A DNA stretch of 64,000 nt from an uncultured Thioclava sp. (GTDB lineage: Bacteria; Pseudomonadota; Alphaproteobacteria; Rhodobacterales; Rhodobacteraceae): NCBI RefSeq assembly GCF_913064665.1, contig NZ_CAJYBT010000012.1, forward strand, positions 1 to 64,000, in the 5' to 3' direction. The notes beneath the pieces were generated by a model that had not been told where the DNA came from, did not search any database, and saw nothing but the letters and a program-made list of their open reading frames with translations. A program made the translations under genes and the position numbers. Of the stretch, positions 5,563 through 27,967 are shown one piece after another; position 1 is the stretch's first letter, and every line of letters begins with the position of its first letter.

Positions 5563-6927
5563 ATGCACACACTCGATGGCGTCACGCGCACGGAACAATA
5601 CCGGGCCTTGGGCCTCAGTACCTTCGCCTTCACCGTCTGCTTTGCCGTCTGGACGATTTTTTCGATCATCGGCGTACGGATCAAACAGGAACTCGGTCTG
5701 AGTGACACCCAATTTGGCCTGCTGGTTGCAACGCCGGTTCTGACCGGTTCGATTAGTCGGATTTTTCTGGGCGTCTGGACCGAGCAATTCGGCGGACGGA
5801 TCATGTTTCCGTTGCAGATGCTGATCACGGCCGTTGCCGTCTGGCTGCTGGCAACCGTCCATACCTATGAGATTTTCTTGCTGGCTGCGTTGGGGCTGGG
5901 GCTTGCGGGTGGCTCGTTTATCGTGGGCGTGGCCTATACGTCCCGTTGGTTTGAAAAAGAGCGTCAGGGCACGGCCTTGGGGATCTTTGGCGCAGGCAAT
6001 GTGGGCGCTGCGGTGACGAACTTTGCCGCACCTTTTCTTGTGGTGGCTTTGGGTTGGCAAGGGACGGCCAAGGTCTACTCCATCGTGTTGGTCGTGACTG
6101 CCGTGCTGTTCTATCTACTCGCCAAGACCGATCCGGTTCAGACCGAGCGCAAGAAAACGGGTGCCAAGCCGGTCTCGGCAAGCGATCAGCTTGCACCACT
6201 CAAGGATATTCAGGTCTGGCGCTTTGCCACCTATTACTTCTTCGTCTTTGGTGGGTTTGTCGCGCTGGCCTCGTTTCTGCCGCGCTACTATGTTGGCGCT
6301 TACGGTTTGCCGCTGACCACAGCGGGCGTTTTCGCAGGGTTCTACTCGCTGCCCGGTTCGGTTTTCCGCGCCCTCGGGGGGTGGATGTCGGACAAATGGG
6401 GCGCGCGCTCTGTGATGTATCTGACGTTCCTCGTCTCGCTCGTGGTGCTGTTTATCATGAGTTACCCGGAAACGAGCTACACCGTATCTGGCATCCACGG
6501 GCCGATCACCTTCACCTTCGGGCTGAATGCGACGATGTTCATGGGAATGACGGTGCTGCTGGGGTTTGTAATGAGCCTCGGCAAGGCGGCGGTCTACAAA
6601 CATATTCCGGTCTATTATCCCCATCACGTCGGTTCGGTTGGTGGCCTTGTGGGCATGATCGGCGGCCTTGGTGGATTTTTCCTGCCGATCTCGTTTGGCT
6701 TCCTGCTGGATTTGACCGGGGTCTGGACGGCGCCCTTCATGCTGATGTTCGTGCTGGTGCTGGTCTCGACGATCTGGATGCATGTCGCGATCCGGCGGAT
6801 GGAGCATGCACGTCACCCGGGTCTGGCCGACGAAAAATACCTTTCAGACGTGCCCGAAGCCCCGCTTTCCCAAAGCCGTTCCGGTGCACGTGATGCCGGG
6901 CGCGCAATGCCGCAACCCGCGAAGTAA
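5563..6927 (+). CDS. narK1: Nitrate transporter NarK1 (major facilitator superfamily)
   Basis: A 454-residue, 12-helix inner-membrane transporter of the nitrate/nitrite porter family. The two nitrate signature regions are visible: FGAGNVGAAVTNFAAP in the first half and GKAAVYKHIPVYYP with a glycine-rich stretch (GSVGGLVGMIGGLGG) in the second. NarK1-type proteins are thought to bring nitrate in with protons. The start is supported by GGAGAGA five bases upstream. It is the first gene of the nar operon, directly downstream of the FNR box. A separate NarK2-type gene follows; in Paracoccus denitrificans the equivalent proteins are fused. Confidence 0.9.
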   Translation: MHTLDGVTRTEQYRALGLSTFAFTVCFAVWTIFSIIGVRIKQELGLSDTQFGLLVATPVLTGSISRIFLGVWTEQFGGRIMFPLQMLITAVAVWLLATVHTYEIFLLAALGLGLAGGSFIVGVAYTSRWFEKERQGTALGIFGAGNVGAAVTNFAAPFLVVALGWQGTAKVYSIVLVVTAVLFYLLAKTDPVQTERKKTGAKPVSASDQLAPLKDIQVWRFATYYFFVFGGFVALASFLPRYYVGAYGLPLTTAGVFAGFYSLPGSVFRALGGWMSDKWGARSVMYLTFLVSLVVLFIMSYPETSYTVSGIHGPITFTFGLNATMFMGMTVLLGFVMSLGKAAVYKHIPVYYPHHVGSVGGLVGMIGGLGGFFLPISFGFLLDLTGVWTAPFMLMFVLVLVSTIWMHVAIRRMEHARHPGLADEKYLSDVPEAPLSQSRSGARDAGRAMPQPAK

Positions 6928-6990
6928 CGAGTTTCCAGCGGGCCGCGCCCTGCGGCCTGCATCATCAAAGCACTCTATAGGAGCCGCATC

Positions 6991-8382
6991 ATGGCGAGCA
7001 CCAATCTCTCCCCGACAAATGGCCACGTCCTGACCGACTGGCATCCCGAAGACCCCGATTTCTGGACCACCCGCGGTCGCGCGATCGCGACCCGTAACCT
7101 GTGGATCTCGATCCCCGCGCTCTTGCTGGCCTTTTCGGTCTGGATGGTGTGGTCGGTGGTTGTCGCGAAACTGCCCTCAATCGGGTTTGACTACACGACC
7201 GATCAGCTGTTCTGGCTGGCGGCACTGCCCGGCCTGTCAGGCGCGACGCTGCGCATCTTTTACAGCTTCATGATCCCGATCTTTGGCGGGCGCAAATGGA
7301 CGGCGCTGTCCACCGCGACCCTGTTGTTGCCCGCGCTTGGTATCGGTTTCGCGGTGCAGAACCCGAACACGCCCTATTCGATGTTCCTGATCCTCGCGCT
7401 GATGTGCGGCTTTGGCGGGGGCAACTTCGCCTCGTCGATGGCCAATATCGCCTATTTCTACCCGAAGGCGCAAAAGGGTAACGCGCTGGCGATGAATGCG
7501 GGGCTGGGCAACCTTGGGGTTTCGGTGATGCAGTTCGTCGTGCCGCTGGTCATCACCTTTGGGGTGTTCGGGGCCATCGGTGGCGCGCCGCAGCAGCTTG
7601 CCAATGGGGGCGAGTTGTTCATGCAAAACGCCGGGTTCATCTGGGTGCCCTTTATCGCCATCGCTGCCGTTGTGGCGTGGTTCGGGATGAATGACATTGC
7701 CTCGGCGACCGCGTCGTTCAAGACGCAGTCGGTGATTTTCGGGCGCTTCCATAACTGGGTGATGTCGTTTCTCTACACCGGGACATTCGGCAGCTTCATC
7801 GGCTATTCGGCGGGCTTCCCGCTGCTGATGAAAACTCAGTTTCCCGATGTGAACGTGCTGCAATACGCGTTCCTCGGTCCGCTTGTCGGCGCGCTAAGCC
7901 GCTCGGGCACGGGCTGGATTTCCGACCGTTTCGGCGGCGGGCGCGTCACGCTGTGGACCTTTATGGGAATGATCATTGCGGTCTGGGGTGTGTTGCAATT
8001 CCTGCCCTCTGGCGCGGATGCCGGGAATTTCTGGGGCTTCTTTGCCTGCTTCATGGTGCTGTTCTTCCTGACCGGTGTGGGCAACGCCTCGACCTTCCAG
8101 ATGATCCCCACGATCATGCGCCAAGAAGTGCCGCGCTTGAACCCCGGGCTCGATCCGAAGGCTACGTTGAAGCAGTCTGAAATGGAGAGCGCAGGGATCA
8201 TCGCCTTCACCTCCGCAATCGCGGCCTATGGCGCCTTTTTCATCCCCAAGGCCTACGGCATTTCGATCGATTACACGGGCGCGCCCAACGCCGCGCTGTG
8301 GGGCTTTATGATCTTCTACGCGATCTGCGTGGTGGTGACTTGGTTCTTTTACAGCCGCAAGGGCGCCCCGGCTCCCTGCTGA
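6991..8382 (+). CDS. narK2: Nitrate/nitrite antiporter NarK2 (major facilitator superfamily)
   Basis: A 463-residue, 12-helix transporter with signature stretches GFGGGNFASSMANIAYFYP and AGLGNLGVSVMQFVVP. The NarK2 group is associated with nitrate/nitrite exchange during respiration, which supplies the cytoplasm-facing NarG site and exports toxic nitrite. The ATG at 6991 is preceded by AGGAG. The gene is 63 bases after narK1 and 67 before narG. A stable stem-loop lies between narK2 and narG. Confidence 0.9.
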   Translation: MASTNLSPTNGHVLTDWHPEDPDFWTTRGRAIATRNLWISIPALLLAFSVWMVWSVVVAKLPSIGFDYTTDQLFWLAALPGLSGATLRIFYSFMIPIFGGRKWTALSTATLLLPALGIGFAVQNPNTPYSMFLILALMCGFGGGNFASSMANIAYFYPKAQKGNALAMNAGLGNLGVSVMQFVVPLVITFGVFGAIGGAPQQLANGGELFMQNAGFIWVPFIAIAAVVAWFGMNDIASATASFKTQSVIFGRFHNWVMSFLYTGTFGSFIGYSAGFPLLMKTQFPDVNVLQYAFLGPLVGALSRSGTGWISDRFGGGRVTLWTFMGMIIAVWGVLQFLPSGADAGNFWGFFACFMVLFFLTGVGNASTFQMIPTIMRQEVPRLNPGLDPKATLKQSEMESAGIIAFTSAIAAYGAFFIPKAYGISIDYTGAPNAALWGFMIFYAICVVVTWFFYSRKGAPAPC

Positions 8383-8392
8383 CATCCTGTGA

Positions 8393-8420
8393 CGCGCGCC
8401 CCGGCGTCTCGTGGCGCGCG
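8393..8420 (+). other. Stem-loop between narK2 and narG
   Basis: CGCGCGCC (8393-8400) and GGCGCGCG (8413-8420) form a perfect eight-pair GC stem with a 12-base loop. No T-run follows, so it is more likely an mRNA processing or stability element that sets narG level relative to the transporters than a full terminator. Confidence 0.45.
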
Positions 8421-8449
8421 CCCTTATCCTGTTCCCGAGGAGACGAGAT

Positions 8450-11400
8450 ATGAGCAACCTGCTCGATAGATTGAACTTTTTCCAGTCCAGCGAACTGGAG
8501 CAATTTTCCAATGGTCACGGCCATGTCACCCGTGAGAACCGCGACTGGGAGGACACGTATCGCAACCGCTGGCGGCACGACAAAATCGTGCGCTCGACGC
8601 ATGGTGTGAACTGCACCGGGTCGTGTAGCTGGAAGATCTACGTGAAATCCGGGATCGTCACTTGGGAGACGCAACAGACCGACTATCCGCGCACTCGCCC
8701 CGGCTTGCCCAACCATGAACCGCGCGGTTGCTCGCGCGGGGCAAGCTATAGCTGGTATCTTTATAGTGCGGCACGTCTCAAGCACCCGATGGTGCGCGGT
8801 CGCCTGATGCGGATGTGGCGCGAGAAGCGCAAGACATTGGCCCCGATTGCGGCCTGGGAGGCGATCCAAAGCGATCCGATCCTGCGTGCGGAATACACCA
8901 AGACCCGCGGCAAGGGCGGGTTCGTGCGCGCAAGCTGGGATGAGGCGACCGAAATCGCCGCCGCCGCCAATGCCTATACCGCCAAGAAATACGGCCCCGA
9001 CCGGGTGTTCGGGTTCTCACCGATCCCGGCAATGTCGATGGTGTCTTACGCGGCGGGCGCGCGTTACCTGTCGCTGATGGGTGGCTCGGTGCTGTCGTTT
9101 TACGACTGGTATTGCGACCTACCGCCAGCCAGCCCGCAGACTTGGGGCGAGCAGACCGACGTGCCGGAATCAGCCGATTGGTTCAACGCGGGCTTCTTGC
9201 TGATCTGGGGGTCGAACGTGCCTCAGACCCGCACGCCGGACGCGCATTTCTACACCGAAGCGCGCTATCGCGGCACCAAGTCAGCGGTGATCTGCCCCGA
9301 TTATTCCGAAGCGTCGAAATTCGGCGATATCTGGCTGAACCCGAAACAGGGCACCGATAGCGCGCTGGCGATGGCAATGGGCCATGTGATCTTGCGCGAG
9401 TATCACCTTGATCGTCAGACCGAATATTTCGAAGATTATGTGCGGCGCTATTCCGACATGCCGATGCTGGTGGTGTTGGACAAAAAAGGTGACCGGCTTA
9501 TCCCCGGCAAGCAATTGCGCGCCTCTGATCTGGCTGACGGGCTGGGCGAGGCGAACAATCCCGAATGGAAAACGGTCGCCTTTGATGAGACCAGCGGCCA
9601 GATGGTCGCGCCCAATGGCTCGATCGGGTTTCGCTGGGGCGAAAAGGGCAAGTGGAACCTTGAAGAGCGTGCGGATAAAGCCAACGTAAAGTTGCAGCTC
9701 AGCCAAATTCTTGAGGGCCAACACGATGCCGTCGTCGGTGTCGATTTCCCTTATTTCGGCGGCGCGGCCAGCGAGAACTTTGTCAAATGCGAACACCCCG
9801 AGGTGCTGACTCGCAACGTTCCTGTGCGTCGCGTCACGCTGGCGGATGGCCGCGAGGCGATGGTGGCCACGGTGTTCGACCTGCTTTGCGCCAATTACGG
9901 TCTGGACCGTGGCTTGGGAGGCAAATGGGTCAGCCATGATTTCAACGAGGATCTCCCCTACACCCCGAAATGGGCCGAGAAGATCACCGGCGTGAAGGCC
10001 GAAAAGATCATCGCCGTCGCGCGTGAATTCGCGGGCAATGCCGAGAAGACCAATGGCAAGTCGATGGTGATCCTTGGGGCCGGTATCAACCACTGGTATC
10101 ACATGGACATGGCCTATCGCGGCATCATCAACATGCTGGTGATGTGCGGTTGTGTTGGCCAGGAAGGTGGCGGCTGGAGCCACTATGTGGGTCAGGAAAA
10201 GCTGCGCCCGCAGACCGGCTGGTTGCCGCTGGCTTTCGCGCTGGATTGGTCACGCCCGCCGCGCCAGATGAACGGCACTTCGGCGTTCTACGCCCATTCC
10301 GATCAGTGGCGTTATGAGACGTTGAGCGCGAGTGAAATCCTCTCGCCGACCGCGCCTGAGGGCGATTGGAACATCTCGCTGATCGATTACAACGTGCGCG
10401 CAGAACGCATGGGCTGGCTGCCCTCGGCACCCCAGCTCAAGACCAACCCGCTAGAGGTTGCGAAGGCTGCGAAAGCCGCGGGCGTCGATCCCAAAGAGTA
10501 TGTGGTCGACAAGCTGAAATCGGGCGAATTGCAGATGTCGTGCGAAGACCCGGATGCGCCCGAGAACTGGATGCGCAACCTTTATGTCTGGCGTTCCAAC
10601 TTGCTGGGGTCCTCCGGCAAGGGGCACGAATATTTCGTGAAACACCTGCTGGGCACCGACAGCGGCATCATGGGCAAGGATCTGGGCGAAGAAGGCCGCG
10701 CCAAGCCCAAAGAGGTCGCTTGGCACGACAAGGCCCCCGAGGGCAAACTCGACCTGTTGGTGTGCATCGACTTCCGGATGTCCACCACGGCGGTCTACTC
10801 CGATGTCGTGCTGCCCACGGCAAGCTGGTATGAGAAGAACGACCTCAACACCTCGGATATGCACCCGTTCATCCACCCGCTGCAGGCGGCGGTGGACCCG
10901 GCCTACGAGTCGAAATCGGATTGGGAAATCTTCAAGGCGATCGCCAAGAAGTTCCAAGAGGTTTCGAAAGGTGTGCTCGGTGTTGAGACCGATATCGTTC
11001 AGGCACCAATCCTGCATGATACGGCGGGCGAGTTGGCCCAGTCCGACGTGCTGGATTGGAAGAAGGGCGAGTGTGAGATGCTGCCGGGCAAAACCGCGCC
11101 CAATTATGTCACGGTCGAACGCGACTATACCGCGATCTATGACCGCTACATCGCCGTTGGTCCGTTGCTCGACAAGCTGGGCAATGGCGGCAAGGGGATC
11201 GGCTGGGATACCAAGCACGAGGTCGAAGAACTGCGCCAACTCAACGGTGTCTGGGAGGATGGTCCCGCGAAAGGCTGCCCCAAGATTGTTACCGATATTG
11301 ATGCAGCTGAAATGATCTTGATGCTCGCGCCCGAGACCAATGGCGACGTTGCCGTGAAAGCGTGGGGAGAGCTTGAGAAACCCACGGGTCGTGAACACGC

Positions 11401-20346: not shown

Positions 20347-21054
20347 ATGACCGTGGATACGCGCCGCGTGATCGTTAATGTTGCGAATGTCTCCAAGCAC
20401 TATGGCGAAGGTGATGCACGAGTTGACGCTTTGAAAAGCGTTGATCTGTCGGTGCATGCGGGCGAGGTGGTGGCGCTGCTGGGGCCTTCGGGATCGGGCA
20501 AGACGACGCTGTTGAATATCATCGGCTGCATCATCGACCCGAGTGCGGGCAAGGTCATTCTGGATGACGAGCTGGTGTATGATGACCGTTGGCTGCGCGG
20601 CGATTTGCGCAAGCTTCGGCTCGACAAGATCGGGTTTATCTTTCAGTTCCACAATTTGCTGCCCTTCCTGAACGCGCAAGACAACGTGGCTCTGGTGTTG
20701 AAGCTGGCGGGCAAATCCTCAGCCGAGGCCCAAAGGCGCGCCCTTGAATTGCTCGACTATCTGGAGGTGGGACATCGCAAGGATGCCATGCCAGCCCTTC
20801 TGTCAGGCGGCGAGGCGCAACGCGTGGCGATCGCGCGTGCCTTGGCCAATAGCCCGCGCATCATTCTGGCCGATGAGCCCACAGCCGCGCTTGACAGCAA
20901 GCGCGCGGGAGTCGTGATGGATCTGCTGCGCAAACTTGCCGCCGAGCATGATGCCTGCATCATCGCCGTGACCCATGACGAGAAGATCTACGACCGTTTT
21001 GATAAGGTCTTCCATCTGCGTGATGGGCAGCTTGATCGGGGGGAGGCGATGTGA
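20347..21054 (+). CDS. LolD/MacB-like ABC exporter ATPase
   Basis: A 235-residue ATPase driving the exporter. The Walker A is GPSGSGKTT (near residue 45), the signature is LLSGGEAQRVAIARAL, and Walker B is IILADEPTAALD; a switch histidine follows in AVTHDEK. The ATG at 20347, four bases after the permease stop and preceded by AGGGGG, is preferred over a frame that begins 198 bases earlier inside the permease gene. Confidence 0.9.
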   Translation: MTVDTRRVIVNVANVSKHYGEGDARVDALKSVDLSVHAGEVVALLGPSGSGKTTLLNIIGCIIDPSAGKVILDDELVYDDRWLRGDLRKLRLDKIGFIFQFHNLLPFLNAQDNVALVLKLAGKSSAEAQRRALELLDYLEVGHRKDAMPALLSGGEAQRVAIARALANSPRIILADEPTAALDSKRAGVVMDLLRKLAAEHDACIIAVTHDEKIYDRFDKVFHLRDGQLDRGEAM

Positions 21055-21276
21055 AGATAGTATCAATCTCAGACACCTCCCCCCTCAAAGCCGGGGTAGG
21101 CGTCTTGCGGTCCTTTCAGCACCCTCGGGACGCGGCTGTCGCAACGGATAGTGGGCGTTCATGACTGTCGTTGTTGGGTGGCCGAACCACGCTGCTTTGA
21201 ATTTGCACGGCATCGTCCTGCCACACGAAATCGCCGAGGCGACGAGGGAGCTATCCCTTTCCGACGTCATCATACC
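21055..21276. other. Gene-free stretch between convergent operons
   Basis: No convincing gene. Near its left end GAC-CCT-CCCC (from 21072) can pair with GGGG-AGG-GTC (to 21104) with single mismatches between blocks, a possible terminator for the rightward ABC exporter. An open minus-strand frame (21085-21273) reads through the stretch but has no ribosome-binding site and no family that I recognise. Confidence 0.4.
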
Positions 21277-22242
21277 CTATTCCCGGCCGCTGGATTTGCC
21301 TCGGTTTCCTTCCCGCGTGTCGGAATGGTCCGTCTTGAAGCGGTCTTTTTCTGACAAGAACACGGCCTCAACACCCAATCGATCAGCCAGGTCGCGCCCT
21401 GCGGCCTCGCCCAGGACCATGAACGCGCTGGCCAGTGCATCGGCCTCGACGCAGCTTGACGCCAGAACGGTAACCGAGGCGGGGCCGTCGATCAGCGGCG
21501 CGCCGCGCGCGGGGTCCATCGTGTGGCCCAACCGCTGCGCACCGACCTGCACCCAATGGCGGTAGTCGCCCGAGGTCGCAATCGCCGTGTCGCACAGCTC
21601 AAAGACGGAATGCACGGCGCGGATGTCCGGGTCGGGACGTTCCAGCGCCACGCTCCAGCCGCGCCCCTTGGGGCCATTCCCAAGCGCGCGCAATTCGCCG
21701 TCGATCGCGGCCAGCGCGTTGGGAATGCCCTGCGCGCCCAGCACCTCGGTCAACCGGTCCACGCCATAGCCCTTGGCGATGCCCGACAGATCCAGCGTCA
21801 TCTCGCCATGTTTGCGTGCGCGCAGATTGGCGCAATCCAACTCCAGCGTGGTGAAACTTGGCTGGCGTTTGCGCGCCAACGCGGCGCGGATCGCCTGCGC
21901 GTCTGCCGGGGCGGGGCCAAAGCCCCAAGCGGCAATCGCATCGCCCATCGCGATCTCGAATGCGCCATCGCTGAGCCGCCCTATCTTTAGCGCCGTGTCC
22001 AGAACCGCCATCAGTTGCGCGGGCAGGTCCACCCATGACCCAAGGGGGGCCGCGTTCAGGCGCATCAGATCGCTCTCAGCGCGCCAAGTCGACATTTGCG
22101 CATCGACCTGCGCAACCGCCTGTTGCAGGGCGTCTTGCAGCCCATCGCGGTCCTCGGGAGCGGTGGGCGTCACAACCGACCAGCGCGTGCCCATCGTGGC
22201 ACCGTTCAGCGCAAATCGGTCTTTAGTAGACGTCTTCGGCAT
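21277..22242 (-). CDS. apbE: FAD:protein FMN transferase (ApbE family)
   Basis: Attaches FMN covalently to a Ser/Thr of target proteins using FAD. The 321-residue protein has LNGATMGTRWSV at the start, the DLSGIAKGYGVDRL active region, GELRALGNGPKGRGWSV and the TSGDYRHW motif of the family. Neither a signal peptide nor a lipobox is visible, so unlike many ApbE proteins it may act in the cytoplasm. Its ATG lies inside the end of the reductase gene (20-base overlap), so it is the last gene of the leftward electron-transfer series. The DUF2271 protein upstream carries a candidate acceptor motif. Confidence 0.9.
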   Translation of the reverse strand: MPKTSTKDRFALNGATMGTRWSVVTPTAPEDRDGLQDALQQAVAQVDAQMSTWRAESDLMRLNAAPLGSWVDLPAQLMAVLDTALKIGRLSDGAFEIAMGDAIAAWGFGPAPADAQAIRAALARKRQPSFTTLELDCANLRARKHGEMTLDLSGIAKGYGVDRLTEVLGAQGIPNALAAIDGELRALGNGPKGRGWSVALERPDPDIRAVHSVFELCDTAIATSGDYRHWVQVGAQRLGHTMDPARGAPLIDGPASVTVLASSCVEADALASAFMVLGEAAGRDLADRLGVEAVFLSEKDRFKTDHSDTREGNRGKSSGRE

Positions 22243-24430
22243 ATCGTCCCTCGGCTTTGAGCGTGGCGGGGCTTTGCCCGCTCGCGGACAGCATTTCGGC
22301 TAAGGTTTCGCGCACGCCCGCCGCCATTTCGCGCCCACCACACACCATAATCTGCGCGCCGCCCGTCAGCAGTTGCAGTATTCGACCGGCGTTGATTTTA
22401 AGGCTGTCTTGCACATAGTGATGCGGCTCTTGGCGGGAATAGGCGGTTGTCAGGGTCGCAAGCTGCCCCGCGCTCTGCCAGTTGAGCAGTTCCTCATCAT
22501 AAAGCAAATCGCTGGTTGGCGTGCGTGCGCCAAAGAACAGGTGCATCGGGCGGCGCTTGTGATTGGCGCGCACGAATCCGGCCAAGGGGCCAATCCCGGT
22601 GCCCGCGCCGATCAAGATCACGGGGGCGCGTCCGGGGGCGGGGCGAAAATCGGGGTTGCGGCGCAAGAAGGCGGCGACACTCTCGCCCGAGGTCATCGTC
22701 GTCAACTGCCCCGAGCACAGCCCACCCTCATGCTGGCGCACGCAAATCTCGATGAACCCATCCGCGCGCGATGACGCCAGCGAATAAAACCGTGGCACGG
22801 TCGAGCCTTTCGGCACAATGCCCAACAGATCGCCCGCCTCGAACCGGGCAAAACCCTGAGAGGTCAGGCGTTGCCACAGGCTGCGCGGGGGCAGGGCAAA
22901 GCGCAGAATGGCGGTGGGGGCGCCCACGGCCTTGCCGTAATCGCGCCGCTGGATCAGGCGCAGCGCCTCGGTGCGCGGTACTTCGGGAAGATGCGACAGC
23001 TCAAGCGGCAGACCAAGGGCCGCGCCAAGATCATGCCCCCAACGCGCGAAATCTTGCGGCGATTGGCGGTCCACCGTGGCCAAGGGGAGCAACTCGGGCC
23101 AGCCGATATCTTGCGCCGCGCGCGCCAAATCCTGCGCAAAGCCGCAAAACTGCGGAAAAGAGCGATCGCCAAAGCCCAGGATGGTGAGCGGCGCGTGCGG
23201 GGCTGCGGGCAATGCGCGGATCCGCTCGATCACGCCGCGTGCCGCACTTGGGGGGGCGCCCTCGCCATAGGTTGCGGCCAAGATGATGAAGCGTTTGGCG
23301 TGGCTATAGCGTTTCGGGTCAAACTGGCTCAGCGGGGCGACATGGACGCCCTGACGCTGCGCCTTGAGCGCGTCACGCAGGGTGCGCGCAAACCCCCAGC
23401 TTGTGCCCCCTTCCGAGGCGACAAGCACGACCGTCTCGGCGCTGCCTGCGGCTGTGTTGCCCTTGATCCGGCTGGCCTTGCCGCGCTGTGCCAGCCATTG
23501 CACGACCCCTGTCAGCGCAAGCGTCGGCACACTCAGCGCCATCAGGCCAAGGATCAGCCCCAGCACAGATGCGCCGCGCCCGGTGTGCAACAACATGATA
23601 ATGTTGGAAATGCGCGTCCAGATGCCGGGCGTGGCCGAAGACAGCACCTTGCCCGTGCCCGGATCGACCAATGCGGTGCCACCATCCGTCTTGAGAGTAT
23701 AGACATCGGTGGGATCGCTGGGCGAGGGCAGCGAGAGTTTTTCCAGCGCGGAAACCTTTGTGCTTGCTAGGATCGGTATTTGCGCAACCGGCAGCGCGGT
23801 CCCCCCCGGCGTGGCGCTGGCAAAACTGGGCAGCGCGCTGTCATCGGGGATCATCGAAAACGTCAGCGCGGTCAGCCAGAGCGCCGTCAGCGAGGACAAC
23901 ACCAAGCCCCCGACCGCAAAGCGCGCCAGTTCCACATGGATGCGTCCGGGCCACGGGCCACGGGTGGGCCCGAACCAACGCCGCCAGCCGCCCATCCGGC
24001 GCGCCACCAGCGCCGCGCCCGACAGCGTCAGCACCAGCATTGCCACCGCGCCCGCTGCCGTTACCCACCGCCCGGCATTACCCAGAAACAGCGAGCGATG
24101 CAGATCGGTCAGCCACAGCTCCACCCGCGACGGATCGGCTGACCCGGCATCCTTGCCCGTTGCCGGGTCGATTACGGCCGCACCCGGCGCACCCGCCTTG
24201 AACCAATAGGCCTCGATCTGGCCCGATGGCGTGCGCCGGATCTGCTCAAGCCCCGGATGATTGACCGCGACCTGTTGGGTCAGCGCCGCGACCGTCAAAT
24301 CCGCCGAGGCCTGAGGGGCCCTCAGATGATCAAGCGCGGGAAAGACCGAAAGCGCGGCCCCGCTGAGCGACACGACAATCACAAGCAGGGCCGCGATCAG
24401 ACCGGGCCAGCGGTGGGTTAGACGCAACAT
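22223..24430 (-). CDS. PepSY-TM / flavodoxin / FAD-NAD(P) reductase fusion
   Basis: A 735-residue membrane flavoprotein. The N-terminal part (about 1-315) is a PepSY-associated membrane domain with helices near 10-30, 118-140, 170-192 and 290-312 and two extracytoplasmic segments (including DPATGK and DPGTGK). It is followed by a flavodoxin-like domain (about 330-480, TVVLVASEGGTSWGFA and ATYGEGAPP) and a CysJ-like FAD and NAD(P) domain (about 490-735, RFYSLASSR, GLCSGQLT, ILIGAGTGIGPLAGF, MVCGGREMA). The likely path is NAD(P)H to FAD to FMN to the membrane domain, delivering electrons to the periplasm. Relatives are linked to iron-siderophore reduction and to flavinylated partners. Downstream apbE and upstream DUF2271 genes support the latter. 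Confidence 0.85.
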   Translation of the reverse strand: MLRLTHRWPGLIAALLVIVVSLSGAALSVFPALDHLRAPQASADLTVAALTQQVAVNHPGLEQIRRTPSGQIEAYWFKAGAPGAAVIDPATGKDAGSADPSRVELWLTDLHRSLFLGNAGRWVTAAGAVAMLVLTLSGAALVARRMGGWRRWFGPTRGPWPGRIHVELARFAVGGLVLSSLTALWLTALTFSMIPDDSALPSFASATPGGTALPVAQIPILASTKVSALEKLSLPSPSDPTDVYTLKTDGGTALVDPGTGKVLSSATPGIWTRISNIIMLLHTGRGASVLGLILGLMALSVPTLALTGVVQWLAQRGKASRIKGNTAAGSAETVVLVASEGGTSWGFARTLRDALKAQRQGVHVAPLSQFDPKRYSHAKRFIILAATYGEGAPPSAARGVIERIRALPAAPHAPLTILGFGDRSFPQFCGFAQDLARAAQDIGWPELLPLATVDRQSPQDFARWGHDLGAALGLPLELSHLPEVPRTEALRLIQRRDYGKAVGAPTAILRFALPPRSLWQRLTSQGFARFEAGDLLGIVPKGSTVPRFYSLASSRADGFIEICVRQHEGGLCSGQLTTMTSGESVAAFLRRNPDFRPAPGRAPVILIGAGTGIGPLAGFVRANHKRRPMHLFFGARTPTSDLLYDEELLNWQSAGQLATLTTAYSRQEPHHYVQDSLKINAGRILQLLTGGAQIMVCGGREMAAGVRETLAEMLSASGQSPATLKAEGRYAEDVY

Positions 24431-24445
24431 GCGATATCCTCTGGA

Positions 24446-24916
24446 TCACTCGGTAATGGTCAGGCTCTTGATGTAGCGGCGCCCGCCAATGGCTTTGCCA
24501 AGATTGGCCTTGCTCAAGGGCACCACGATTTCCTTGGGGCTTTCGGGCATGTTCTCGACCGCCGCATCGACATGCAGAACATAGCCCGCATCAAACAGCG
24601 CATCTTGTAGATCAAGCGTCACCTTGACCGAACGCCCGGAGCCGACCGAGGCCCCGGTTATGCCCGAAACTTGCGCGGCATCCCCGCCCGTTGCCTGATA
24701 CCAGCCGCTGAGGTGGCGGTAGTAGCGCGCATTGCCTCCCGCCATCCACAGGCTGCCGACATAGGCCCCATTCGCGTTCGTCACATACATCGCGAAATAG
24801 GCGTTATTGCCATAATAGTTGGTCATCTGGGTGCTAAAGGTGACAGGGCGCGCAGAGGCGAGACCGGGCACGGTGAGCGCGGTTGTCAGCGCCAAAGTGG
24901 TCATCAGAGTTTTCAT
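24446..24916 (-). CDS. DUF2271 periplasmic protein, probable flavinylation target
   Basis: A 156-residue exported protein with a Sec signal (cleavage near LASA, residue 22) and a DUF2271-like body (MYVTNANGAYVGSLWMAGG, HLSGWYQATGG). Residues 83-93, VSGITGASVGS, align with the ApbE motif best known from NqrC/RnfG (D-x-x-S-G-A-T), with TGAS at 87-90; Ser90 would be the FMN acceptor. The aspartate usually three residues before is replaced by Ser84. GGAGA precedes the start. It lies directly before the reductase fusion, so it could be its periplasmic electron acceptor. The flavinylation is inferred. Confidence 0.75.
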   Translation of the reverse strand: MKTLMTTLALTTALTVPGLASARPVTFSTQMTNYYGNNAYFAMYVTNANGAYVGSLWMAGGNARYYRHLSGWYQATGGDAAQVSGITGASVGSGRSVKVTLDLQDALFDAGYVLHVDAAVENMPESPKEIVVPLSKANLGKAIGGRRYIKSLTITE

Positions 24917-24937
24917 CGGTGTCTCCTGGCTGCGCGA

Positions 24938-25375
24938 TCAGTTCGCTTGAACTTGCGGCGGGGTGGCGTTGTTGAACAAACCGTTCGCAGGCGGTGGCGC
25001 GGTGCCAGCGGGCGCGGGGTTCATGGCTTTGCTGCCCATGCCGCCGTCATCGTCATCTTCGTCGTCGTTTTCATCGTCGTGATGTTTCTTACGGCTCTTG
25101 AACCAGTGCTCGTCGCTATCGTTATCAGCGAGCACGATATGGGCGGCGGGCGCGTCGGTTTGTGCGCTGGTAATCGCGGCAGGGCTGGTTACGACCTGCG
25201 CAGAGCCGACCAGTGCAGACCCTACCAACGCAGCCGTGCTGGATGTCGATTGCATCAGCGTCGCCGTGGGCGTGACAGTGACGTCAGGTGCAGGGATCGG
25301 GGCTGCGGACAATGCGCCAAAGACGCTTGTGCCGACAGCGGCGGTCAGGGCGAGAAGGGCAAATGCGGATTTCAT
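24938..25375 (-). CDS. Exported protein with His/Asp-rich acidic stretch
   Basis: A 145-residue protein with a signal peptide (MKSAFALLALTAAVGTSVFG, cleaved near Ala24). A low-complexity Ala/Ser/Thr region follows, then HWFKSRKKHHDDEN at 90-103 running into an almost pure Asp/Glu stretch to residue 110, and a Pro-rich tail. No domain is recognised. The clustered His and Asp suggest metal (Fe, Cu or Ca) binding, which would suit the redox genes beside it. The ATG at 25375 follows AAGGAA; a 14-residue longer reading would put arginines before the signal. Confidence 0.65.
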   Translation of the reverse strand: MKSAFALLALTAAVGTSVFGALSAAPIPAPDVTVTPTATLMQSTSSTAALVGSALVGSAQVVTSPAAITSAQTDAPAAHIVLADNDSDEHWFKSRKKHHDDENDDEDDDDGGMGSKAMNPAPAGTAPPPANGLFNNATPPQVQAN

Positions 25376-25438
25376 GGACGATTTCCTTTGTCTGTGGCGT
25401 TTCCTTGGGCCGACCATGAGGGCTGAGTCTGATCGGAG

Positions 25439-25520
25439 CCTGAAGCGTTGCGCCGCAGCGCTTCAGGTTCGTGTCAGGTGGGCGCGTCGATCACAAACTT
25501 GGGGGTAAATCGACGCGCCC
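25439..25520 (-). other. Two stacked stem-loops between the PepSY and acidic-protein genes
   Basis: CCTGAAGCG (25439-25447) pairs perfectly with CGCTTCAGG (25459-25467), and GGGCGCGTCGAT (25480-25491) pairs perfectly over 12 positions with ATCGACGCGCCC (25509-25520) around a 17-base loop. A GC palindrome lies just beyond. In the leftward transcript they fall between the two cistrons; an attenuator, processing site or terminator is possible. The first stem overlaps a regulator box. Confidence 0.5.
25462..25479 (+). promoter_or_regulatory. Response-regulator box C
   Basis: TTCAGGTTCGTGTCAGGT is a tandem repeat, TTCAGGT then GTCAGGT, with an 11-base period. It matches boxes A and B near the response-regulator gene at 15 and 13 of 18 positions. 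It lies 87 bases upstream of the acidic-protein start. Confidence 0.55.
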
Positions 25521-25543
25521 TGCCCCGGGGAACGGGCCCGGGA

Positions 25544-25837
25544 TCAGTCGTCGTCCTGGCGCTCTGGCTCCAAGACGCGCAACGTGCCGGGATCGAGGCG
25601 CAGCTCAACCCGGTTGCCTTTTGCGTCACGCGCTTTGACCTCGTAGCAGCCATCGTCGATCTTGATACGGCGTACTGTCAGGCCGCGCTTTTGCATCAGC
25701 GCATTGACCGCTGCTATCGGTTGCCAATCTGCCATCGGGACGCGGCAATCATGCTCAGAGGCCAGCGCAGCCGTGCCCATGCCCGTGGCAAGAACCAAGG
25801 GCAGGGCAAGACGACGAAGACGAAAAAGACGCGGCAT
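25544..25837 (-). CDS. Small exported PepSY-domain protein
   Basis: A 97-residue protein with a signal peptide (basic RLFRLRRL, then LALPLVLATGMGTAALA, cleaved near residue 27) and one PepSY fold: VNALMQKRGLTVRRIKIDDGCYEVKARDAKGNRVELRLDPGTLRVL. Two cysteines (in HDCRVP and DGCYEV) could form a disulphide. PepSY proteins commonly lie next to two-component systems and modulate periplasmic enzymes or sensors. It is the first leftward gene, divergent from the response regulator. The ATG at 25837 is set by the signal peptide. Confidence 0.8.
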   Translation of the reverse strand: MPRLFRLRRLALPLVLATGMGTAALASEHDCRVPMADWQPIAAVNALMQKRGLTVRRIKIDDGCYEVKARDAKGNRVELRLDPGTLRVLEPERQDDD

Positions 25838-25881
25838 GAAGGGCTCCGGTTCAGGTCGGTTGACGCTGATGTGGCGCATGA

Positions 25882-25899
25882 AGCTGACGCCAACCTGAA
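25882..25899 (-). promoter_or_regulatory. Response-regulator box A, facing the PepSY gene
   Basis: On the minus strand the sequence is TTCAGGTTGGCGTCAGCT: TTCAGGT and GTCAGCT with an 11-base period, the geometry bound by OmpR-family regulators. It ends 44 bases before the PepSY start. Confidence 0.6.
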
Positions 25900-25916
25900 G
25901 CGGGGGGCGCGTCGGG

Positions 25917-25934
25917 TTCAGCTTGCGGTCAGCT
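25917..25934 (+). promoter_or_regulatory. Response-regulator box B, facing the regulator gene
   Basis: TTCAGCTTGCGGTCAGCT: TTCAGCT and GTCAGCT with an 11-base period, 15 of 18 identical to box A in the opposite orientation. It ends 39 bases before the response-regulator start and suggests autoregulation. Confidence 0.6.
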
Positions 25935-25973
25935 TGGCACACGATAACCTGTACCGGCCGCTTGGAGAGTTGA

Positions 25974-26633
25974 ATGCGCATTTTGCTAATCGAAGATGAT
26001 AGCGTGCTTGGCTCTGCCGTGCGCGACCAGATCGCAGCCGATGGACATTCGGTCGATTGGATGAAGCGGCTCGATGAGGCGGGCGATGCGATGGCGGTGG
26101 CGGTCTTTGACCTTGTGCTGCTTGATCTGATGCTGCCCGACGGGCTCGGGATTGGCTTTCTGCGCAAGCTGCGTGCGCGCGGCGATGTCACCCCGGTGAT
26201 CATCATGACCGCGCTTGATCAGGTGTCTGACCGGATCGACGGGCTGAATGCGGGCGCGGATGATTATCTGGTCAAACCCTTTGATCTGGAAGAACTTTCG
26301 GCCCGTATCGGTTCTGTTGCGCGCCGCTATGCGGGCAATCCCAACCCGACGATCACGCATGGCCCGCTTGAGATTGATCTGGCGGCGCGCACGATCTACC
26401 GCGATGGCAATCCGGTCGCGCTGACGGCGCGCGAATGGGTGCTGTTTGAGGCCTTTCTGAGCCGCCCTGACCAGTTATTGTCCAAAAAACAGCTTGAAGA
26501 GCGGTTCTATTCCTTTGACGCCGAGATCGAGAGCAACACCGTCGAGGTGCATGTCAGCCGCCTGCGCAAGAAACTGGGGGCAGGTGTGATCGTGACCGAA
26601 CGCGGGCTTGGTTATCGGTTGGGCCGACGATGA
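25974..26633 (+). CDS. OmpR/PhoB-family response regulator
   Basis: A 219-residue regulator. The receiver domain (1-115) has the acidic pair Asp8/Asp9, the phospho-acceptor Asp51 in LVLLDLMLPDG and the switch lysine in DDYLVKPFD. The C-terminal winged helix (about 125-219) includes LTAREWVLFEAFL and EVHVSRLRKKLG. GGAGAG precedes the ATG. It overlaps the kinase gene (ATGA). It probably controls the divergent PepSY/electron-transfer genes through the three direct-repeat boxes. It is of the QseB/FeuP/PmrA type; the stimulus is not readable. Confidence 0.92.
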   Translation: MRILLIEDDSVLGSAVRDQIAADGHSVDWMKRLDEAGDAMAVAVFDLVLLDLMLPDGLGIGFLRKLRARGDVTPVIIMTALDQVSDRIDGLNAGADDYLVKPFDLEELSARIGSVARRYAGNPNPTITHGPLEIDLAARTIYRDGNPVALTAREWVLFEAFLSRPDQLLSKKQLEERFYSFDAEIESNTVEVHVSRLRKKLGAGVIVTERGLGYRLGRR

Positions 26634-27967
26634 GGTGGCCGCACTCGCTCCAGATCAGGCTGGGTCTTGCGGTGGGGGTGGTTGTGACCCTGCTTTGGGT
26701 CGCGAGTGCGTTGGTGACAGCGCAACTGATGCGCGGCGAGATGAACGAGGTGTTCGATTCTGCGTTGCAAGAGACTGCGCAACGGATTTTGCCGCTTGCG
26801 GTTGGGCAAATCCTTGGCCGTGAGGGTGTGACGGGGGCGCAGACCGTGCCGATAGTTCGCCCCCATGAAGAGCATTTCACCTATGTCGTGCGCGATGCGT
26901 CGGGCACTGTTTTGCTGCAGTCGCATATGGCGCAGCCCGCGCTGTTTCCTCCCTATTCGGGGCCCGGATTTTACGACACGCCCAAGCTGCGCATCTATTC
27001 CGATTCAGCGCTGCGTGGCAGTATCACGATCTCGGTCGCCGAACCGCGCACGCATCGCGATAACGCCGCGCATGAGGTGCAGATGGGGCTATTGGCGCCG
27101 CTGGGGCTGATCATTCCGTTGTCGCTTGGGGCGATTGCGCTGGTGTTGGGGCTGGGCTTTACCCCGCTGCGCCGGTTCCGGTTACGCTTGGCGGCGCGCG
27201 GAGCGGCGGATCTTTCTGCGGTGGAGACCCGCGATCTGCCCGCCGAGGTGCAGCCTTTGGGCGAGACGCTGAACGCGCTGTTAGCCCGGCTGGATGCGGC
27301 GTTTCAGGCCGAACGCCATTTTGCGGCCAATGCCGCACATGAGTTGCGCACGCCGCTGGCCGGGGCCATCGCGCAGACGCAGCGGTTGCGCTCAGAGACG
27401 ACAGACCCCGCAAGCGCCGCGCGTGCTGGCGAGATCGAGGCCGGGTTAAAGCGGCTCACCCGGCTGTCCGAGGGGTTGATGCAACTGGCACGTGCCGAGG
27501 GCGGCAAGCTGCGCAATGAGGATATGCGCGATCTGCGCCCGATCCTGCGCTTGATGGCCGAGGACACTGCGCGTCTTGCCGGGGCGCCGCCGGTTCAGCT
27601 TGAGCTGCCCGAGACTGAGGTGCGCTCTGATCTTGATCCCGACATCTTCGGCATCTTGTGTCGCAACCTGATCGAGAACGCGCTACGCCACGGCACGCCG
27701 GGCGCGCCGGTGGTGGTGCGCCTGACGCAGGCCGGTCTGCTATCGGTTGAGAATGATTGTGACCCGCTGCCCGCCGAGGTGCTGGCCCAGCTTGGCAACC
27801 GGTTTGAGCGCGCGCCCGGATCGGGTGTTGGCAGCGGTTTGGGGCTTGCCATTGTGCACGCGATCATGGAGCGCGCGGGCGGCACGTTTGATGTAAAATC
27901 CCCCGCGCCGGGGCGCGAGCGCGGCTTTGTTGCGCGCGCCGATCTGCCGCTGCGCCTGCACCACTAG
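26630..27967 (+). CDS. Sensor histidine kinase
   Basis: A 445-residue inner-membrane kinase. Two transmembrane helices (about 12-34 and 154-178) flank a periplasmic sensor of roughly 120 residues with no recognised fold. There is an HAMP-like linker, the phospho-acceptor His237 in HELRTPLAG, an N box (NLIENALRHG) and G box (GSGVGSGLGLAIVHAI). It phosphorylates the regulator encoded just upstream. Possible signals are metals, periplasmic redox state or the PepSY protein, by neighbourhood only. Confidence 0.92.
   Translation: MRWPHSLQIRLGLAVGVVVTLLWVASALVTAQLMRGEMNEVFDSALQETAQRILPLAVGQILGREGVTGAQTVPIVRPHEEHFTYVVRDASGTVLLQSHMAQPALFPPYSGPGFYDTPKLRIYSDSALRGSITISVAEPRTHRDNAAHEVQMGLLAPLGLIIPLSLGAIALVLGLGFTPLRRFRLRLAARGAADLSAVETRDLPAEVQPLGETLNALLARLDAAFQAERHFAANAAHELRTPLAGAIAQTQRLRSETTDPASAARAGEIEAGLKRLTRLSEGLMQLARAEGGKLRNEDMRDLRPILRLMAEDTARLAGAPPVQLELPETEVRSDLDPDIFGILCRNLIENALRHGTPGAPVVVRLTQAGLLSVENDCDPLPAEVLAQLGNRFERAPGSGVGSGLGLAIVHAIMERAGGTFDVKSPAPGRERGFVARADLPLRLHH

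Follow-up and report, generated by a model that had tools for sequence, protein, structure and literature searches.

A probable PepSY-like flavinylated electron export cluster with a divergent two-component pair and an ApbE lacking a recognisable export signal in an uncultured Thioclava

Introduction

PepSY-like flavinylated electron transfer systems were described by Meheust 2021, where DUF2271 was shown to be a substrate of the flavin mononucleotide (FMN) transferase ApbE; in that set, 2833 of 3220 clusters contain DUF2271 and 167 contain VIT1, and an NAD-binding domain is found in 1077 PepSY-like genes (PMC8238504). The cluster considered here belongs to this class and lies between positions 21277 and 27967 of a 64,000-nucleotide stretch (the window) on contig C12 of the 3.7 Mb genome of an uncultured Thioclava sp. 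Like the systems of Meheust 2021, it unites a PepSY_TM protein, ApbE and a DUF2271 protein bearing [ST]GA[ST]; the passages treating those systems name links to Fur, TonB and DUF4198, but make no mention of a dedicated two-component pair, a repeat, a PepSY_2 protein or an acidic tail protein. A preliminary description of the locus had called it a candidate system, which overstates its novelty, since the class is already in print (PMC8238504).

Several described systems resemble parts of this cluster. The Caulobacter operon CCNA_03155-03159 likewise carries DUF2271, ApbE, PepSY-family and sulfite-reductase-like flavoprotein genes and is linked to iron (PMC11870441, PMC3751524); it also contains DUF4198 and is under Fur control, whereas no DUF4198 is found among the seven proteins of the window cluster. 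FoxB, which shares the PepSY_TM core, contains two hemes, each held by two His (PMC13038864). Its chain (7ABW) has 382 residues, against 735 in the fusion protein of the window, and is too short to leave room for the reductase half of that fusion. The HprSR-MsrPQ system, in turn, couples a two-component pair with the supply of electrons across the membrane to the periplasm, as appears to be the case here, but employs MsrQ and a molybdenum enzyme where the window cluster has the fusion and DUF2271. The class, the substrate family and the core idea are already known; new, within the reach of a literature search that saw its sources in part, are a type with two-component genes and a conserved repeat, and a conserved mismatch between a leaderless ApbE and an exported DUF2271.

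Results

The minus strand carries, in the order of transcription, genes for an exported PepSY_2 protein of 97 amino acids (25544–25837; PF13670, 81.2 bits), a small exported acidic protein rich in Asp and His (the D/H-rich protein; 24938–25375), the exported DUF2271 protein of 156 amino acids (24446–24916; PF10029, 109.2 bits; Sec-type leader read from the sequence), a 735-amino-acid fusion of PepSY_TM, CysJ-like flavodoxin and flavin adenine dinucleotide (FAD)/NADP reductase (22223–24430; PF03929 107.4, PF00258 38.7 and PF00175 48.7 bits) and the 321-amino-acid FAD:protein FMN transferase ApbE (21277–22242; PF02424, 250.5 bits), the last two genes overlapping by 20 bases. Divergent from them, on the plus strand, lie a PmrA/QseB-like response regulator (25974–26633; PF00072, PF00486) and a QseC-like sensor kinase (26630–27967; identified by Pfam, with NCBIfam QseC under its cut-off). 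The series of apbE, fusion and exported DUF2271 given in the preliminary description was located by Pfam as stated, and the end of its interval matches the end of the PepSY_2 open reading frame at 25837. As a unit, the interval proved too small: the named genes are present, but the divergent pair and the operator region belong to the cluster as well, and the exported frame at 24938–25375 had gone unnamed. Among the marks of the PepSY-like class of Meheust 2021 are PF03929 or PF16357 in a flavinylation-associated cluster, a signal peptide or lipidation site on one or more of the ApbE, FMN_bind, DUF2271 and DUF3570 genes, and [ST]GA[ST] in DUF2271. Here they are found in PF03929 next to ApbE and DUF2271, in a signal peptide on DUF2271 (by our own rule) and in its TGAS motif; the export or lipoprotein signal of an exported-form ApbE is lacking in the window ApbE by our own rule.

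Relatives were collected with PF10029 at E 0.001, which matched 64 of 295 genomes in the family, 39 of 385 in the class and 70 of 398 in the phylum (63, 19 and 65 genomes, respectively, over the curated cut-off). Stretches were fetched for over-cut-off matches from the family and class searches and for 20 from the phylum search; sorted by similarity to the window proteins, they comprise 77 loci of the window type (those whose proteins resemble the window's, the window included), 27 of the Caulobacter type, and L079, which is neither. Neighbour counts use the 62 window-type loci with more than 4 kb upstream and more than 3.5 kb downstream. Among these, the fusion follows DUF2271 in 61, ApbE is present in 58, a regulator upstream and opposite in 52, the kinase in 53, PepSY_2 in 49 and all five in 46; the divergent pair of two-component genes is part of the cluster. 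A relative found via DUF2271 (L005) shows kinase, regulator, PepSY_2, DUF2271 and the fusion start in the order of the window. The type extends to other families of the class (L146–L149, L200, L201) and beyond the class (L196–L199).

Both members of the pair stay below the NCBIfam equivalog cut-offs of the families they match: the regulator scores 192.7 bits for PmrA (cut-off 330) and 186.4 for QseB (345), the kinase 173.3 for QseC (475). Just past its first membrane helix the kinase carries a periplasmic E37xxE40 (E37 in 60 of 63 sequences, E40 in 53 of 63), and a literature search on this sensor motif (BqsS, RExxE) found nothing. In L112 the periplasmic part of the kinase contains an Asp/Glu/His-rich insertion that resembles the small acidic proteins. 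Two-component control of a heme-b transmembrane supply brings to mind an envelope oxidative defence of the HprSR-MsrPQ kind, in which the sensor pair would detect oxidants and induce an electron supply for periplasmic repair. Together with the MsrQ-like neighbours this control favours an oxidant response: ferric-reductase-like (PF01794) genes occur in 13 of the 62 loci, Pfam confirming the domain on L082, L198 and L199, and reactive chlorine species trigger MsrPQ expression (PMC9302797). Yet the best regulator matches are PmrA and QseB, with HprR lower at 119.1 bits, and no repair enzyme was noticed among the clustered neighbours, for which no dedicated search was made; such a role is considered rather unlikely.

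A repeat, TCAG-N7-TCAG, was sought in the 220 bases ahead of the regulator start at 62 loci with a regulator and found at 61 of them, on both strands at 48 (none in L128), against a mean of 0.29 and a maximum of 2 loci in 200 rounds of mononucleotide shuffling, the genomes being related rather than independent, so that these counts are not probabilities. The consensus reads CTTCAG[GC]YTNN[CT]GTCAGC, and the spacing between the two opposite copies is about 33 bases. In the window, the divergent promoter region holds two opposite copies, candidate operator 1 (TTCAGGTTGGCGTCAGC, 25883–25899, minus strand) and candidate operator 2 (TTCAGCTTGCGGTCAGC, 25917–25933, plus strand); candidate operator 3 (TTCAGGTTCGTGTCAG, 25462–25477, plus strand) precedes the D/H-rich gene, and a fourth, weaker TCAG-N7-TCAG lies at 25429–25443 on the minus strand. 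Many loci likewise have an extra copy ahead of the D/H-rich, a second PepSY_2 or the DUF2271 gene. A promoter scan of 21000–26100 gave no sigma-70-like site. TTCAGNNTNNNGTCAG has five occurrences in the window's genome, of which three are at the cluster, and its reversed control pattern has one. The strict form, TTCAGSYTNNNGTCAGC, gave 26 matches in 16 of the 21 DUF2271-bearing genomes among 31 chosen ones; 24 of these lie at the cluster and two elsewhere (G010:C4, G002:C5). None was found in the DUF2271-bearing G254, G039, G097, G247 and G278 or in the 10 genomes without DUF2271, and the reversed control matched once across all 31. Since nearly all strict matches are at the cluster, the repeat seems to serve it almost alone. 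The cluster's own regulator is presumed to bind the repeat.

The catalytic triad of ApbE is conserved. S224, H240 and D268 are each invariant (70/70) and spaced as the catalytic Ser241-His257-Asp285 of V. cholerae ApbE (PMC12052999), and the window protein shows the fold family, with PDB relatives at a best E of 1.1e-49, and the Asp-Ser-His triad. A recognisable export signal is absent. Our rule, a start codon followed by a hydrophobic stretch ahead of the domain, flagged one of 64 scored window-type loci, and that one falsely (in L131 the stretch lies inside the domain itself). Twelve of 76 loci were unscored: in L074, L102, L113, L129 and L198 the stretch does not contain a complete gene, and the remaining seven show no hydrophobic stretch over 1.1. 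The distance from the upstream stop codon to the MS.W motif is at most 70 residues in 58 of 64 (median 56), so that in most loci the stop lies too close to leave room for a leader. As a control, ApbE was searched in 63 of the 64 family genomes with DUF2271 (G124, under the cut-off, omitted), and 40 other copies were fetched from 121 match rows. Of the 30 that could be scored, 29 have a possible leader, by eye mostly of the twin-arginine translocation (Tat) or lipoprotein kind, and the thirtieth (L159) is of the window type by sequence; 10 more were unscored. For the Caulobacter type the rule is unreliable (7/17 flagged, 10/27 unscored), and no claim is made there.

Thirteen genomes of at least 95% completeness (G003, G064, G095, G103, G154, G170, G177, G215, G242, G247, G274, G278 and G284) have the leaderless ApbE of the cluster as the only ApbE found; the copy of G284 is unscored by the rule, but no hydrophobic stretch was seen in it. 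The window's genome has two ApbE genes, both without a recognisable signal, the second adjoining an exported FMN_bind protein. That second locus (L150, G000:C33:30000-40255, 6842–9527) comprises the exported FMN_bind protein with SGATLTS, a 247-amino-acid ApbE without a recognisable leader and, as read from the sequence by eye, an NqrB/RnfD-like protein with a reductase part.

The motif VSGITGASVGS reported in the preliminary description is present in DUF2271, and the Ser of TGAS is residue 90 counted from the ATG (codons T87-G-A-S90 at 24647–24658, minus strand), the predicted site of FMN attachment. In 76 related window-type rows, T or S at 87, G88 and S90 are invariant (76/76 each) and A89 is kept in 75, the sole departure from [ST]GAS being TGGS in L099; loss of the motif in orthologues beside apbE, set beforehand as the outcome that would speak against the prediction, was not what these rows show. 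The published seven-residue motif is D-x-x-[ST]-G-A-[ST] (PMC12052999). Its first position is S84 in the window and N in 35, D in 23, S in 11, A in 4, H in 2 and R in 1 across the set, so the likeness to the NqrC/RnfG FMN motif drawn earlier holds for the rest of the motif but not for this Asp. Replacing that Asp by Ala had only a minor effect in one tested target, and ApbE favours Thr above Ser as the attachment residue (PMC12052999). The Caulobacter type retains [ST]GA[ST] in only 12 of 27 loci, which makes strict [ST]GAS a mark of the window type; the remaining 15 carry D-x-x-[ST]-[GSA]-[AP]-T in 14 cases, L145 fitting neither pattern. Variants such as SSAT, GPT and APT are seen in these Caulobacter-type loci (L132–L145, L203–L215).

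The leader of window-type DUF2271, called by our own rule rather than SignalP, has a hydrophobic stretch in 75 of 76, an A-x-A-like site in 72 of 76 and an RR motif in 5. A quick tree, which omits the wrongly framed row L141 and the 15 of 27 Caulobacter-type rows without [ST]GA[ST], splits 76 window-type from 12 Caulobacter-type rows by a single branch with a Shimodaira–Hasegawa-like approximate likelihood ratio test (SH-aLRT) of 100; the Caulobacter type thus branches apart, the Caulobacter gene itself not being in the tree by name. The predicted model is a beta-sandwich with a predicted local distance difference test (pLDDT) score of 67.7; no PDB fold match at E ≤0.001 was obtained, the rows being mostly antibody domains from which "Ig-like" alone was taken, and the PDB sequence search reached a best E of 0.17. 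Weak DUF2271 matches (e.g., L055–L065) lie in longer frames of about 180–350 amino acids and mostly cover the motif stretch of the profile only; these may be RnfG/NqrC-like proteins with the common flavin motif.

That DUF2271 carries no flavin in vivo, a cytosolic ApbE never meeting it or serving another protein, would accord with an ApbE devoid of a recognisable export signal. This is clearly unlikely in view of the conservation of TGAS and of the ApbE triad, and ApbE of A. ursilacus flavinylated the DUF2271 of that organism, a Thr-to-Ala change serving as control (PMC8238504). The fusion was also weighed as the ApbE substrate and rejected, because [ST]GA[ST] is rare in fusions (13/72) and scattered in position.

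In the membrane part of the fusion, H6, H111, H165 and H282 are invariant (72/72), with no other invariant His column there, and are presumed to be the ligands of two b hemes. A single-sequence PDB search with the PepSY_TM part gave no match at E 1; a profile of 32 rows matches FoxB (7ABW) at E 1.2e-8, aligning H6, H111 and H282 with FoxB His and leaving H165 unaligned; going by order, its counterpart would be the third-helix His of FoxB. The reductase half is similar to CysJ and to P450 reductases (PDB; NCBIfam CysJ), and S665 (72/72), R666 (69/72) and Q674 (72/72) stand at what we take to be the Ser-Arg...Tyr-Val-Gln NADPH (reduced nicotinamide adenine dinucleotide phosphate) site of CysJ and cytochrome P450 reductase (CPR). 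A structure model of the fusion reached pLDDT 56 and was not used. The route suggested in the preliminary description, from NAD(P)H through the fusion to a covalent periplasmic flavin, agrees with the domains, the four His, the CysJ/P450-reductase-like NADPH end and the conserved TGAS, and may well be followed.

The small proteins of the cluster carry acidic and His-bearing stretches. For the D/H-rich protein a Pfam search gave no match above cut-off; its conserved C-terminal tail, NPAPAG...NGLF...PPQVQ.N, is recovered with a strict pattern at 23 of the 77 loci. The window frame at 24938–25375 and its counterparts in L069, L074, L084 and L085 have the tail NPAPAGTVAPPQNGLFGNGxPPQVQVN in common on bodies formed by a PepSY_2 domain or by Asp runs. 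A gene counted as an optional neighbour when it matched a representative at more than 50 bits, at whatever position in the fetched stretch, Pfam being run on the representatives; besides the ferric-reductase-like genes, these are cytochrome b561 (PF01292; 19 of 62), VIT1 (PF01988; 22) and metal-type P-type ATPases (24). None of the four was seen adjoining the window's own cluster. The membrane module may be exchangeable, to judge by L199, whose stretch contains a ferric-reductase-like/FNR gene but lacks a fusion. L124 and L125, both without the two-component pair, have an ankyrin-repeat gene between fusion and ApbE.

Discussion

Taken together, the cluster is probably a PepSY-like flavinylated electron export system as described in 2021, in a variant under its own two-component control. 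In the working model, the sensor kinase would detect an envelope signal, and the phosphorylated regulator would bind the paired TCAG-N7-TCAG and activate PepSY_2 and, through a second site, the D/H-rich protein, DUF2271, the fusion and ApbE. Within the fusion, electrons would pass from NADPH to FAD, to the FMN of the flavodoxin part and across the membrane over two b hemes, the outer of which would reduce the FMN carried on Ser90 of DUF2271. ApbE would stay cytosolic and load FMN from FAD onto the DUF2271 precursor before Sec export. DUF2271 could then reduce an oxidised periplasmic metal, Fe(III) being the likeliest, while the PepSY_2 and D/H-rich proteins would bind metal or partners.

A metal acceptor is favoured by the VIT1 and ATPase neighbours, by the acidic and His-bearing stretches, by the Caulobacter iron data and by metal reduction in PepSY_TM relatives (PMC8238504, PMC13038864); ferric iron is a guess, ranked first but not strongly. 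An ordinary assimilatory ferric reductase, freeing chelated iron under iron limitation with the two-component pair as an extra layer, would find its model in the Fur-regulated Caulobacter operon, whose proteins are alike and which shows a fitness defect in EDTA (ethylenediaminetetraacetic acid), and L125 has FecCD, Peripla_BP_2 and ABC ATPase genes nearby. However, L125 is among the loci without a regulator, the conserved repeat points to two-component control and the window-type DUF2271 splits from the Caulobacter type, making this an improbable, if reasonable, account. Copper, for which CrpH, another PepSY_TM protein, has been argued to serve (PMC13038864), would be compatible with the P-type ATPase matches. 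TPCP was read in the ATPase of L081, TPC being the P1B-5 motif. As the metals given for P1B-5 and P1B-6 ATPases are Ni/Fe and Fe (PMC7558416), a copper reductase is very unlikely.

Several observations weigh against the model of a two-component-controlled export system acting on iron through a precursor flavinylated in the cytosol. The pair is patchy: 10 of the 62 loci (L068, L087, L119, L122, L124, L125, L130, L131, L196, L197) have no regulator, and its distribution needs at least seven changes on the DUF2271 tree. Some repeat matches fall inside genes, and none lies within 400 bases ahead of VIT1 or ATPase genes, which were therefore rejected as regulon members. These two genes are not beside the window's own cluster, 34 of the 62 loci have neither, some P-type ATPase matches are weak or partial, and among the seven proteins of the cluster Pfam found neither DUF4198 nor a TonB receptor. 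Not every DUF2271-linked ApbE is leaderless: the tested A. ursilacus ApbE must have a leader, being described as signal-peptide-truncated (PMC8238504), and in L145, where ApbE and DUF2271 share a single frame, the start looks like a leader. As far as found, export through Sec has not been documented for a flavin-bearing chain: a literature search of partly accessible sources returned no paper on flavin attachment before export, and the main text of Meheust 2021 nowhere uses "cytosolic ApbE".

An ApbE without a signal beside a DUF2271 with a leader nevertheless suggests that the flavin may be attached before export, which is more likely than flavinylation in the periplasm, a doubtful step here. 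Most ApbEs seem secreted, but cytosolic ones exist, with a bacterial example acting on a soluble fumarate reductase, and a seven-residue tag suffices as substrate, which fits modification of an unfolded precursor (PMC12052999). According to a review, the Sec lumen opens to as much as 2.4 nm with rigid organic tails (PMC6028853), so that a flavin-bearing chain could pass. There is thus a slight preference for a cytosolic ApbE that would attach FMN to a Sec substrate while this is still an unfolded precursor, the flavin-bearing chain then crossing SecYEG.

With the sensor pair and the clear candidate operator, the trigger of this class becomes open to a direct reporter test. An ApbE without a signal calls into question the usual view that exported proteins receive their flavin outside the cytosol, and would require Sec to carry a flavin-bearing chain; if true, flavinylation followed by export would relieve the cell of supplying FAD to the periplasm.

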